This document shows positions 1 through 42,344 of a stretch of 64,000 bases of DNA, piece after piece. Source of the DNA: Anaerolineae bacterium (GTDB taxonomy: Bacteria > Chloroflexota > Anaerolineae > B4-G1 > DUEL01); assembly GCA_016931695.1 (NCBI GenBank), contig JAFGEI010000158.1:1-64000 (forward strand). The letters run 5' to 3'. How positions within the stretch are numbered: the stretch's first letter is position 1; the number at the start of each line of letters is the position of its first letter. Below the pieces are notes generated by a model. The model made no database searches. It was not told the origin of the DNA and saw nothing but the letters and a program-made list of their open reading frames with translations. A program made the position numbers and the translations under genes.

Positions 1-3
1 AAG

Positions 4-85
4 GTAGAAAATTCGTGAAATTCGTGTTAATTCGTGGCAGAAATTCCGAGATCATCTAGGGCTCCCCCAACTAATAAATGCGCCC
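4..85. repeat. Dispersed repeat copy 1 (three AATTCGTG-type units, then a 47-bp conserved tail ending GCGCCC)
   Basis: Matches 39426-39497 exactly except for one extra 10-bp unit (AAATTCGTGT); ends directly at the GTPase stop codon (86-88). Confidence 0.9.
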
Positions 86-3591: not shown

Positions 3592-4466
3592 GACGAATCG
3601 GGAAATTGCACCAGGACGATGCTAATGTTGTCCCTTCCCCCAGCCTGGTTTGCCGCCACCGCCAACGCCTCGCAGGCCGCTTGAGGAGAAGCAGCAGCGG
3701 CAATGATCTGGCCCATCTGTTCATCGCTCATCATCCCCCACAGGCCATCAGAACAGAGCAGTAGCCCTTCACCCGGCTGTATCGAATGCACAAAGGTGTC
3801 CACTTCCAATACCCCGCTCTGGCCGATGGCGCGGTAGAGCACATTCTTTTGCGGATGGCTTGCCGCTTCCTCCGCCGTCAGCTGCCCCAGTTCAACCAAT
3901 CGATCTACCAGCGAGTGATCGCGGCTGATCTGCTGCAAACCATTCGACGCAACCAAGTAGGCGCGGCTGTCGCCTACATTCGAGAGATACGCCCGCGAGC
4001 CCAGCAAAAGGGCGCAAACCAGTGTCGTCCCACCGCCTGGAACCGTAGCGTTGACCGTGGAATTGGCCAAATTGCTCCCTTCCACAAGTGTCTCTTGGAT
4101 CGACGGCTGCTGAGCGCCGTGGTCGCGATGGGCCAGGGCGCTCAGGTAGACTTGCTGGACGATGTGACGCGCCATCGAGCGGGCCGCCAGGGCGCTGACC
4201 ACTTCGCCCGACTGGTGCCCTCCCATCCCGTCCGCCAAGATCAGCAGGGTAAAGGGAGGAAGGGCGTTGTTCCCCTCCTGGCTGGCCTGGACAACCAGGA
4301 CGGAATCCTCGTTCGTCGTCCGTTGTTTGCCAACGTCAGACACCCAGCCGACCTGCGCCCGGCTGCTGCCTGACGCGACTTTTTCCGCGTGGGGCGGGGC
4401 AGCAGGAGCAACAGGGGCAGGTTCATCTTGTTTTTTGCTTCCAAAGAGCTTGCGTAAGAAACTCAT
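3588..4466 (-). CDS. PP2C-family Ser/Thr phosphatase
   Basis: TNEDS, LADGMGGHQSGEVVS, CSDGLWGMMSD, GGRDNIS motifs; 4-bp overlap with DnaJ-vWA. Confidence 0.95.
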   Translation of the reverse strand: MSFLRKLFGSKKQDEPAPVAPAAPPHAEKVASGSSRAQVGWVSDVGKQRTTNEDSVLVVQASQEGNNALPPFTLLILADGMGGHQSGEVVSALAARSMARHIVQQVYLSALAHRDHGAQQPSIQETLVEGSNLANSTVNATVPGGGTTLVCALLLGSRAYLSNVGDSRAYLVASNGLQQISRDHSLVDRLVELGQLTAEEAASHPQKNVLYRAIGQSGVLEVDTFVHSIQPGEGLLLCSDGLWGMMSDEQMGQIIAAAASPQAACEALAVAANQAGGRDNISIVLVQFPDSS

Positions 4467-38094: not shown

Positions 38095-38115
38095 TTATGC
38101 GAGGAGGTGGTTAAA

Positions 38116-39345
38116 ATGAGCGAAATCAGGCCCCTGGCCCCAGACGAATTTACCCTCTTTGTCGATATCGTCACCAACGCCTATCCGGGATGGAAGATAG
38201 AGGACAAGGAAAAGATCACCAAGCGGCTGATCGAAATAAACGAGCAAGATTCGACAGTTGCTTTTTACGGTCTTTTTCGCCGCGGGCGCTTGTTGGGAGG
38301 GATGCGCCTGCACAATTTCCGGATGAACTTTTTTAACTGCCGGATCGACGCCGGCGGCGTGGGGTTGATCGCCGTACATCTCTTGCACAAAAAAGAGCGC
38401 GTCGCCAAAGAAATGGTCGAGTTTTTCCTCCATCACTACCGGGCCCAGGGTGCCCCCCTAGCTCTGTTGTACCCCTTTCGCCCCGACTTTTACCACCAGA
38501 TGGGCTTTGGATTGGGAAGCAAGATCAACCAGTACCGGGTGCCGCCCAATGCGCTCCCGCGGAGCTCCTCCAAAGCCCACGTCCGCTACCTGGACGCAAG
38601 AGATCAGCAGGCACTCGGCGATTGCTATGCCCGGACAGTCGACCGGACACACGGGATGATCGAAAAATCCGCAAACGAGCTGCGCAGCCTTTTGAAGCAA
38701 CACGTCGTGGGGTACGAGAAGGATGGGCGGATCGAGGGCTACCTGGCTTTTACCTTTGCACAGGGAGAAAACTGGCTGATCAACGATATCCAGGTCCAGG
38801 AACTGGTCTATGAAAACCGTGAAACACTGTTGGAACTCGTGACCTTTCTGCACACCCAATTCGACCAGATCCGGCACATTATCATCAATACCCACGAGGA
38901 ATTTTTTCACTACCTGTTGCTGGACCCGCGCAACAGCTCCAATAACATCATTCCGCCGGTTTACCACGAGAGCAACGTGCAGGGGACAGGGATTATGTAC
39001 CGGGTGATCGACGTGCCCGCAGCACTTGACATCCTGGCAAACCGGGACTGGGGCGGACAAACCTGCTGCATCCGGCTGACCATTCGAGACACGTTTCTGC
39101 CGGAAAATGGCGGGAGATGGCTGCTGCAGATGGAGAATGGAGAACTGCAGATGCCCGTGACAGGAGAACACGAGGTCGAGCTGCAGATGGATATTGCCGA
39201 GTTCTCGGCCCTGCTGATCGGCGCGGTCGATTTCCATAGCCTGTACCGCTACGGCCTGGCCGACGTATCGGACCCTGCTTTCGTACCCGTGCTCGGCAAA
39301 GCGTTTGCTGCAGAAACGAGGCCGGTCTGCACGACGCAATTCTAA
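38116..39345 (+). CDS. Eis-like GNAT N-acetyltransferase
   Basis: N-terminal GNAT, LLYPFRPDFYHQMGFGLG, C-terminal SCP2-like region; SD GAGGAGGT. Confidence 0.85.
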   Translation: MSEIRPLAPDEFTLFVDIVTNAYPGWKIEDKEKITKRLIEINEQDSTVAFYGLFRRGRLLGGMRLHNFRMNFFNCRIDAGGVGLIAVHLLHKKERVAKEMVEFFLHHYRAQGAPLALLYPFRPDFYHQMGFGLGSKINQYRVPPNALPRSSSKAHVRYLDARDQQALGDCYARTVDRTHGMIEKSANELRSLLKQHVVGYEKDGRIEGYLAFTFAQGENWLINDIQVQELVYENRETLLELVTFLHTQFDQIRHIIINTHEEFFHYLLLDPRNSSNNIIPPVYHESNVQGTGIMYRVIDVPAALDILANRDWGGQTCCIRLTIRDTFLPENGGRWLLQMENGELQMPVTGEHEVELQMDIAEFSALLIGAVDFHSLYRYGLADVSDPAFVPVLGKAFAAETRPVCTTQF

Positions 39346-39373
39346 CGTCCGTTCCCCTGTAGCTGGGTTTTTA

Positions 39374-39389
39374 CAGCGAATGGGCCAGA
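39374..39389 (+). terminator. Left arm of a 16-bp terminator-type stem whose right arm is split by an insertion
   Basis: CAGCGAATGGGCCAGA; complement is divided between 39397-39409 and 39508-39510. Confidence 0.75.
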
Positions 39390-39399
39390 ATACAACTCT

Positions 39400-39409
39400 G
39401 GCCCATTCG
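39400..39409. repeat. Direct repeat (candidate target-site duplication), left copy
   Basis: GGCCCATTCG, identical to 39498-39507. Confidence 0.75.
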
Positions 39410-39497
39410 GGCGTATGCAAAACTTGTAGAAAATTCGTGTAATTCGTGGCAGAAATTCCGAGATCATCTAGGGCTCCCCCAACTAATAAATGCGCCC
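39410..39497. mobile_element. MITE-like non-coding insertion (dispersed repeat copy 2 at 39426-39497)
   Basis: Flanked by 10-bp direct repeats; imperfect terminal inverted repeats GGGCGTAT (39409-39416) / ATGCGCCC (39490-39497); shared sequence with 4-85. Confidence 0.75.
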
Positions 39498-39507
39498 GGC
39501 CCATTCG
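39498..39507. repeat. Direct repeat (candidate target-site duplication), right copy
   Basis: GGCCCATTCG. Confidence 0.75.
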
Positions 39508-39675
39508 CTGCAAGACCCCCGAGGTCTCAAATTTGGATTACTGCGTCTCCTTCGCCACGCTGCCCGGCGACGTGTATACCAATCGTATAGTAAGCGTATG
39601 GTTTGCGTCAAGACAGAACGTGGCAAATCGCGTATACTAGCAACAATTAGGGCGGTATCTCTTTCTCCTCCTTGA

Positions 39676-39704
39676 TGAGGGCCGGGGCATCAACCCGGCC
39701 CTCA
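39676..39704. terminator. 11-bp hairpin downstream of M20 peptidase gene
   Basis: TGAGGGCCGGG / CCCGGCCCTCA. Confidence 0.6.
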
Positions 39705-39723
39705 GTGCGTACAGCAGGCAGCG

Positions 39724-40917
39724 TCAGGGGTTCTCGATCAGCTCTACCGCCAACTGGGCATAGATCTGCGCCGCGGTGCAGACATCCCCCACCGACACCG
39801 ACTCGTCCGCCGCGTGCGCCAGTCGAGAATCCCCCGGCCCCAGCCCCACCGTGGGAATGCCGGCGATGCCGGCAGTGTACGTCCCCTCGGTAGAAAAATT
39901 CCAGTGCCCGATGCGAGGGCGCCGCCCCAGGTGCAGCCGCGCGGCGCGGGACAGGGCCAGCACCAATGGATGTTCCTCCTCGATCACCCAGGGCGGATAG
40001 AACTCGCGGGTTTGACATGGGTAGCCTGTATAGCTGGTCGCGGCGTACTCTGCCACCTGGACGTCGGCTTGGCCCCCTTCGCGGCTGATGACCCGTTGGA
40101 CCTCGGCCAGCGCCATCGATTCCGTCTCGCCGAGCGTGAGGCGGCGGTCGACAACCAGCAAGCATCGATCGGGAATCGCATTGCGGCTGCCCGCACTGCT
40201 GCGAATTTCGGTCACCGCCAGGGTTCCCGGCCCGAGAAACGGGTCCTCCCCCAACTGGTCGGCCAGCAGCTCCAGCCCGAAAACCAGCCGCGCCGCCGCG
40301 TATATGGCGTTATCCCCCAATTCGGGCTGCGAAGCGTGGGCGGAGCGACCGCGGGTGGTCACCTGCAGCTCGATCCGGCCCCGCTGGCCGCGGCAAATCT
40401 GCAGCGCGGACGGCTCTGCCAACAGCACCCAGTCCGGCCGGATGCCCTCTTCCTCGACCAATACCCGGCTGGCAAGCCCCTCGCTCGGCTCTTCCTGAAC
40501 CACGCAGACAGCGACGACCCGGCCCTGGCGCGGCAGGCCCGCCTGCTGCAGCAGGTGCGCCCCATAGACGATTGAGGCCAGCCCGCCCTTCATGTCGCAG
40601 GCCCCCAACCCATACACCTGCTCCCCCTCCATCTCGGCGCCAAATGGATCGTGGTGCCAGGCCGCGGCGTCACTGACGCCGACGGTATCCATGTGACCGT
40701 TGAGCATCAACAGCGGGCCGTCCGGGGCACCCACCCACCCGATCACGTTGCCAATCCGGTCTATCCGCACGTCGCGAAAGCCCAGCCGCTGCATCTCGGC
40801 GACGATCCGCTCCGCTACGGCGCCTTCCTGCGTAGAAAGGCTGGGGATGCGCACAATGTCCCGCAAAAAGGCGACCAGGCCTGTCACTTCCGAGCGATCG
40901 AGTCGAAACTTGCTCAT
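39724..40917 (-). CDS. M20-family metallopeptidase (ArgE/DapE/CPG2-like)
   Basis: LMLNGHMDTVG, YGLGACDMKGGLAS, VQEEPSEG motifs. Confidence 0.92.
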   Translation of the reverse strand: MSKFRLDRSEVTGLVAFLRDIVRIPSLSTQEGAVAERIVAEMQRLGFRDVRIDRIGNVIGWVGAPDGPLLMLNGHMDTVGVSDAAAWHHDPFGAEMEGEQVYGLGACDMKGGLASIVYGAHLLQQAGLPRQGRVVAVCVVQEEPSEGLASRVLVEEEGIRPDWVLLAEPSALQICRGQRGRIELQVTTRGRSAHASQPELGDNAIYAAARLVFGLELLADQLGEDPFLGPGTLAVTEIRSSAGSRNAIPDRCLLVVDRRLTLGETESMALAEVQRVISREGGQADVQVAEYAATSYTGYPCQTREFYPPWVIEEEHPLVLALSRAARLHLGRRPRIGHWNFSTEGTYTAGIAGIPTVGLGPGDSRLAHAADESVSVGDVCTAAQIYAQLAVELIENP

Positions 40918-40928
40918 AGACACCTCGA

Positions 40929-42344
40929 TTAGTACGCGCCCTCGCCGCACAGTGCCTTGGGAATCGTGCGCAGCAGGATCTTGACGTCCAGCCAGGGAGA
41001 CCAGTTCTCGATGTAATAAATGTCGAGCAGGACCATTTCATCGAAAGAGAGCCGGCTGCGGCCGCTGACCTGCCACAATCCCGTCATCCCCGGCGGGGCT
41101 TTTAGGCGCTTTTTGTGCCACTCCTGGTATTGGGCGACTTCGTCGGGAACGTTGGGGCGCGGGCCGACGAGGCTCATCTCGCCGCGCAGCACGTTGATCA
41201 GTTGCGGTAGTTCGTCCATGCTGGTGCGGCGCAGGAAGCGACCCACACGGGTCAGGCGGGGGTCGTCTCGTATCTTGAACAACGGCCCATCGGCCTCGTT
41301 CAACCCTGCCAGGACCTCTTTTTCTCCCTCGGCGCCGGTGCGCATCGAGCGGAACTTGAACATCTCAAAGGTGCGCCCTTCCAAGCCGACTCGCGTCTGG
41401 CGAAAGATGACCGGGCCGGAGCTGTCCAGGCGAATCGCCAGGGCGATCAGGCCCAACAGGGGGAACCCCAGGGTCAGCCCCAGCATCGAGCCTGCAATAT
41501 CTGTCGCCCGCTTGAACAGCAATTTGCCCTGGCTGATCGAGACGCCATGAATGCCGATCAGCGGCACCCCACCCAGGTCTTCGACGTCGACCTGGGTCAG
41601 ACTCATCTGAAAGAGGTCAGGCACGATGCGGGCCTCCACATGCCTCCGCTGGCACTCGCGGACGATGCCCATAATCTTGCGGTGATACATCCACGGCAAG
41701 GTGACAATCACCTCGTCCGCCTGTTCTTGGTCGATCGCTTCGGACAGGTTGTCGAGCGGCCCCAGCGCCTTGAAGGGGCCGATATCGGTGCGCCCTTTCT
41801 CTGGGTTATCGTCCACAAAACCAATGACGCGGTAGCCCAGTTCAGGTTGGGCGACAATGGTGCGCATCACCGTCCGGCCTACCTCTCCCGCGCCAACAAT
41901 GATCGCCTTCCGGACCCCGATGCCCCGCGACCGCAGGCGGGCAATCACGGCCAGGTCGATGGCCCGTACAGCAGCGGTGGCGATGGCGATGACGACGCCG
42001 ACCTCGATCAACATGACGCGGGAGTAAAAGAGCGGGCGAAAGACAAACGTGACGGCAAGCACCAGCACCGTCATCTTTATCGTTGCGTTCAAGATCCGCG
42101 ACACCTGCTCCAACCAGGAGCCGCGCCAGTACCGGTATACGCCGTCCAAGACAAACAAGAGCGGCAGCAAAACGAGGTAAAGGGCCAGGAAGGGCAAATA
42201 CGCCGTCAGGGGCGCGTCGTAAGCAATGTCGAGAAACCAGCGCAGGTCATAGCGCATCCAGTAGCCGACGACAAAGCCGATCCCGATCACGCCAAGATCG
42301 ACGGCAACGACCCACCAGGGCATGTTACGCGTCCCCCTGCTCAT
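40929..42344 (-). CDS. Exopolysaccharide polyprenyl glycosylphosphotransferase (initiating sugar transferase)
   Basis: N-terminal TM and CoA-binding-like region; KRATDIAGSMLGL, FKFRSM, RTSMDELPQLINVLRGEMSLVGPRP, PGMTGLWQVSGRS. Confidence 0.95.
   Translation of the reverse strand: MSRGTRNMPWWVVAVDLGVIGIGFVVGYWMRYDLRWFLDIAYDAPLTAYLPFLALYLVLLPLLFVLDGVYRYWRGSWLEQVSRILNATIKMTVLVLAVTFVFRPLFYSRVMLIEVGVVIAIATAAVRAIDLAVIARLRSRGIGVRKAIIVGAGEVGRTVMRTIVAQPELGYRVIGFVDDNPEKGRTDIGPFKALGPLDNLSEAIDQEQADEVIVTLPWMYHRKIMGIVRECQRRHVEARIVPDLFQMSLTQVDVEDLGGVPLIGIHGVSISQGKLLFKRATDIAGSMLGLTLGFPLLGLIALAIRLDSSGPVIFRQTRVGLEGRTFEMFKFRSMRTGAEGEKEVLAGLNEADGPLFKIRDDPRLTRVGRFLRRTSMDELPQLINVLRGEMSLVGPRPNVPDEVAQYQEWHKKRLKAPPGMTGLWQVSGRSRLSFDEMVLLDIYYIENWSPWLDVKILLRTIPKALCGEGAY

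Follow-up and report, generated by a model that had tools for sequence, protein, structure and literature searches.

A MITE family with ISKra4-type ends and 9-bp target duplications in an Anaerolineae bacterium, with one copy splitting an intergenic hairpin

Insertion sequences of the ISKra4 family (p-MULT 4; Guerillot et al. 2014, PMC3942029) encode Mutator-like transposases; those found in this work carry GGG(C/T)GYAT-type terminal inverted repeats and duplicate 9 bp of their target. Several members of the family reportedly tend to land upstream of sigma-A promoters, on one side or the other (PMC3942029). The ISLre2 and TnGBS transposons (p-MULT 3) have related Mutator-like transposases and also insert near promoters, while bacterial MITEs (PMC10969869) are short and non-coding, with terminal inverted repeats, target duplications, many copies and internal deletions. 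The element described here agrees with the MITEs in all these traits, and with the ISKra4 family in its ends, in its 9-bp duplication and in an excess of insertions near promoters in its genome. It differs from the ISKra4 elements found in this work, whose length is near 1.5 kb, in being 89 bp long, in having no transposase gene and in an interior that consists of a palindromic ATTCGTG repeat. From ISLre2 and TnGBS it is set apart in that the transposases with corresponding ends match ISKra4 far better (299 vs 83 bits) and the insertion distance is not fixed in the present family. The reading preferred here, to which a probability of about 0.9 is given, is that the MITE was moved in trans by an ISKra4-family transposase, with a 9-bp duplication, into a hairpin located after a 412-aa gene.

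The element, its target duplication and the split hairpin

The window, that is, the whole stretch of 64,000 nucleotides analysed, contains the element in the intergenic region 39346-39723, between the convergent genes of the 412-aa protein (plus strand) and of an M20-type peptidase (minus strand). The features are the following:

1-85, plus strand: second MITE copy, right 85 bp, cut by the contig start (genome search, G000:C207:1-85)
38107-39345, plus strand: upstream gene, 412 aa, GNAT according to the initial annotation; same order in relatives
39374-39389, plus strand: left arm of the original 16-bp hairpin, CAGCGAATGGGCCAGA
39377-39409, plus strand: present-day hairpin of 13 bp, its last pair formed by the first G of the element
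39400-39408, plus strand: left copy of the target site duplication GGCCCATTC, 9 bp
39409-39497, plus strand: MITE copy, 89 bp, non-coding, boundaries by alignment with the other copies of the genome
39409-39426, plus strand: left terminal inverted repeat GGGCGTATGCAAAACTTG, with the deletion joint directly after it
39426-39427, no strand: internal deletion joint between CTTG and TAGAAAA, by comparison with a 132-bp copy
39473-39497, minus strand: right terminal inverted repeat, read on the minus strand as GGGCGCATTTATTAGTTGGGGGAGC
39498-39506, plus strand: right copy of GGCCCATTC, 9 bp
39498-39510, plus strand: displaced end of the original right arm, GGCCCATTCGCTG
39724-40950, minus strand: convergent downstream gene, M20-type peptidase by motif inspection

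From sequence strings that are all found in the window, the initial annotation had proposed an insertion that is short, non-coding and MITE-like, whose empty site can be reconstructed and which needs a transposase in trans; this main claim is upheld. Its boundaries have to be shifted slightly: the right edge of the proposed 88-bp block (39410-39497) is correct, while the other copies place the left edge at 39409, which makes the element 89 bp long. The same comparison gives a duplication of 9 bp and not of 10, both lengths having been considered, the tenth matching base being the first G of the element (G39409) by coincidence. The 10-mer GGCCCATTCG occurs three times in the 64-kb window (39377-39386, minus strand; 39400-39409 and 39498-39507, plus strand), with 0.37 occurrences expected by chance and three reached in none of 100 shuffles. 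The 89 bp contain no transposase gene and are bounded by terminal inverted repeats; the family ends are GGGCGTATGCAAAACTTGGGGGAG and GGGCGCATTTATTAGTTGGGGGAG, of which the left one is 18 bp long in the window copy. In full copies the left repeat runs on as GGGGAGCG beyond these 18 bp, and about 42 bp (GGGGAGCGTT...AAAAAGG) that follow them are gone from the window copy, whose closest full copy is the 132-bp one. Judging from this comparison, the window copy derives by internal deletion from a MITE family of 130-150 bp.

Removal of the block with one repeat copy, so that 39408 is joined to 39507, restores the perfect 16-bp stem announced in the initial annotation (CAGCGAATGGGCCAGA-ATACAAC-TCTGGCCCATTCGCTG, 7-nt loop, -30.9 kcal/mol), in place of the 13-bp stem of the occupied allele (-23.3 kcal/mol). 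Since its three extra pairs fall outside the element, the restored stem gives the insertion independent support. In the whole window just two further perfect stems reach 13 bp (loop up to 12), and therefore the 16-bp stem is no chance feature. The block was absent beside the gene in every distant GNAT relative inspected, a comparison that the annotation had suggested for related genomes. With the nearest relatives of the gene at about 50% identity, none offered a truly orthologous empty site, and they were discarded as such, their proteins being about 46-53% identical and their 3' regions unalignable; in two of them (L103 and L104) a hairpin follows soon past the stop codon.

The hairpin begins 28 bases past the stop codon of the 412-aa gene. 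It had been called a terminator, and the stem is indeed present, but neither strand has a T-run after it, so the name of intrinsic terminator is not supported; a 3'-end role is plausible for it, as a candidate only. The end of the peptidase gene has a perfect 11-bp stem, also without T-run, at 39676-39704, and an Rfam search of the window gave nothing except one tRNA. The insertion shifts the last part of the right arm 98 bases downstream. An alternative long-range pairing had been suggested beside the local hairpin; the 13-bp hairpin is confirmed, and the long-range pairing can be drawn but adds only three CAG/CTG pairs. It is very improbable that the insertion has been domesticated, with the split stem now switching from local to long-range pairing and back so as to adjust read-through into the convergent gene: both pairings are drawable and 2.7 kcal/mol apart (-44.7 kcal/mol for the enforced long-range pairing, the less stable, vs -47.4 for the best fold), but the local hairpin forms first, the distal arm offers just the three pairs and the U-tract is missing. 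The long-range pairing would form later, having to displace the local hairpin.

Copies in the same genome and their palindromic interior

The assembly searched comprises 3.87 Mb in 236 contigs and is 93% complete. It gave 40 scored matches to the window segment and 40 to the full-length consensus, that is, about 40 dispersed copies in one genome, and a pattern search found 34 left and 28 right ends, with none in the reversed control. The left terminal repeat of the window copy has 28 exact copies and the right one 24, both with additional near matches and with controls of zero (a reversed pattern for the left one). Full copies measure 130-150 bp; shorter ones of 46 bp (C191) and 42 bp (C139) occur, the latter with an exact 9-bp duplication, GGTGACTAC. 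Flanking direct repeats at copies elsewhere in the genome, which the initial annotation had proposed to look for, were thus found. Among the copies with both flanks available the 9-bp duplication is exact in seven, the window copy included, and others show 8/9 (three copies), 10/10 (one) and 8/8 (one); when the offset is set to 7, 8, 10 or 11 bp, matching stays at background, apart from the single 10/10 and 8/8 cases. The duplication has therefore a fixed length, 9 bp, at most resolved copies.

Many contigs start or stop inside the element, as is explained by the effect of a recent, near-identical repeat on short-read assembly. Six pairs of contig ends rejoin by an exact 9-mer, the other pairings among 300 reaching at most 7/9; the likely neighbours that share a duplication across the MITE are C95/C204, C15/C182, C90/C6, C165/C85, C62/C146 and C61/C57. 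The copy at window positions 1-85 precedes CTATAATAC, and the assembly yielded no contig that carries the corresponding left flank. Contig C188 contains, near positions 3620-3886 (2120-2387 in L141), one 267-bp element whose ends are related but whose interior is different, with many GGGGACAAGGTCCCC repeats; the duplication of this divergent relative has decayed to 7/9.

These copies bear directly on the explanation that the block is native to a 3' regulatory RNA structure and that the direct repeat arose by chance or by local duplication. The occupied sequence does fold better than its shuffles (z -3.2), but the same block recurs at some 40 unrelated sites, each with a duplication of its own wherever this is resolvable, which refutes a native origin, and joining of the flanks yields a perfect stem; the probability left to such an origin is close to nil.

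The interior of the family is the palindromic ATTCGTG repeat (CACGAATTNACACGAA...TTCGTGTNAATTCGTG). CACGAATTNACACGAA occurs at 134 places of this genome (control 0), the repeat is also present alone in other genomes of the class (L095, L097, L099), and some MITE copies sit inserted in it. Near 1440-1720 of L096 (compare L092) the same ATTCGTG core is enclosed in a MITE whose ends are different (GTATCATCTCA... and GTATCTTATCAA...) and which has an apparent 8-bp duplication, AAGTTATG. Because the repeat occurs alone and also inside a MITE with different ends, the ISKra4 ends might be carrying between genomes an independent palindrome, either functional in the host or separately mobile, although this is rather unlikely.

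Autonomous elements and related ends in other genomes

Within its own genome the MITE is without an evident partner. A partner with the same ends in the same genome is usual, though the definition of a MITE does not demand one. No intact partner insertion sequence was found in this 93%-complete, 236-contig assembly, where absence is no proof; autonomous elements with common ends occur in other genomes only. The single ISKra4-like gene of the genome scores 115.5 bits, below the cut-off, and this gene, at C20, was rejected as partner, its ends being GTTAGCGCGCAC and not GGGCGYAT. The expectation of an insertion sequence with matching ends and a 9-bp duplication was consequently borne out in other genomes and failed in this assembly.

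Since the exact left end of the family had no match in public genomes, a degenerate pattern was used. The present family and one that is 81% identical to it, from a different genome within the order, supplied this end motif, GGGCGYATNYANNNSTTGGGGG. With it, public genomes yielded at least 108 stretches, mainly in Desulfobacterales, Chloroflexota and Cyanobacteria. An element had to show a second end and a duplication of 7 of 9 bases or better, so that counts of elements show existence and not frequency, the filter itself selecting for duplications; the matches listed include at least 27 short elements (68-577 bp), 25 of them with at least 8/9 and 14 with all nine bases duplicated. One candidate of 1334 bp with a 7/9 duplication was put aside as chance. 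The motif is present in 19 of 298 sampled genomes of the class, so the family is patchy there. Phage records gave no match; IMG/VR has the end motif in three stretches.

Open frames beside unpaired ends led to one cluster of transposases, two of which are named ISKra4 by NCBIfam (299.5 and 282.7 bits, cut-off 205). Complete insertion sequences with GGG-type ends and ISKra4-family transposases span 1.44-1.55 kb. Two from the same class, L320 (1471 bp) and L322 (1474 bp), have exact 9-bp duplications (AATCGCCCC and GGCGCGCTG, respectively), as does a 1486-bp element annotated ISKra4 on the Acaryochloris plasmid NZ_CP071718.1 (ATTGCGATC), whose ends are more diverged. The ISKra4 elements L336 and L344, with GGG-type but more distant ends, are likewise flanked by exact 9-bp duplications. 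L320 agrees with the motif at every position, L257 and L322 each deviate from it by a single mismatch in one of their ends, and the plasmid element is more distant. Hence the ends of the MITE equal those of ISKra4 insertion sequences, with a 9-bp duplication in common that is exact in L320, L322, L336, L344 and the plasmid copy.

The polarity of the ends can be read in L257, from Litorilinea aerophila, in which a 1515-bp element is occupied by the gene of a 484-aa ISKra4 transposase (299.5 bits, cut-off 205). Its upstream end, GGGCGCATATAAAACTTGGGGGAG, differs at three positions from the left end of the MITE, and the last codons of its transposase, S-P-N-C-stop, lie in the other end, as the right end of the MITE likewise reads S-P-N-stop. 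The contig ends at this element. In L153, L176, L192, L210 and L257 the transposase frame runs into the inverted repeat with its last codons, S-P-N-x-stop, and this may be why TTGGGGG is conserved in the end motif.

Another family with 9-bp duplications, for instance an IS1-, IS4- or IS256-like one, might have moved the MITE, its likeness to ISKra4 ends being then coincidental. The lack of an intact ISKra4 partner in the genome would agree with this, but complete ISKra4 elements of the same class have the same 22-bp end motif together with 9-bp duplications, and the polarity of both MITE ends agrees with that of L257, which renders coincidence improbable. Genes above the ISKra4 cut-off occur in 5 of 19 genomes with these ends vs 19 of 279 others (Fisher p 0.012), and most genomes with these ends are without such a gene. 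The family that most likely moved the MITE, judged from its ends and the duplication length, is ISKra4, through a transposase now lost or unassembled here.

Insertion sites, proposed mechanism and significance

The position of the window copy could reflect a specificity for hairpins or terminators, and the sites in the window, in L079 (12-bp stem) and in L174 (9-bp stem) do lie in stems. Over 46 reconstructed sites, however, the stem length at the target was 5.3 vs 5.0 at neighbouring positions (p 0.65) and the folding energy was the same as there (p 0.49). Hairpins were accordingly rejected as a general target, and a specificity of that kind is hardly to be expected. Promoters gave a different result: in this genome a strong sigma-70-like promoter that points away from the junction and starts no more than 30 bases from it was present in 7 of 59 flanks, against an expectation of about 0.8 derived from positions farther away, a background that includes coding sequence, so that part of the excess may reflect intergenic insertion alone. 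The offsets from the junction vary from 9 to 27 bases, the window copy has no adjoining promoter, and the preference was not seen in other genomes.

The repeated copies, common ends, 9-bp duplications and restored empty site are direct observations. To account for them, an ISKra4-family transposase, a Mutator-like DDE enzyme, would recognise the GGGCGYAT...TTGGGGG ends and insert the element where the two target strands are cut with a 9-bp stagger; repair would then duplicate the 9 bp of target. The target here would have been the right arm of the perfect 16-bp hairpin between two convergent genes, and the window copy would also have shed about 42 bp of its interior. A literature search by title and abstract, with most subscription papers and ISfinder outside its reach, gave no description of an ISKra4-driven MITE family. 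The family is new, but of a known kind.

ISKra4-type ends occur on short non-coding elements of at least three phyla. The present work defines a MITE family, with its likely parent family of insertion sequences, in bacteria known mainly from metagenomes. Moreover, the MITE explains many contig breaks of the assembly, six pairs of contigs being rejoinable by their 9-bp duplications.
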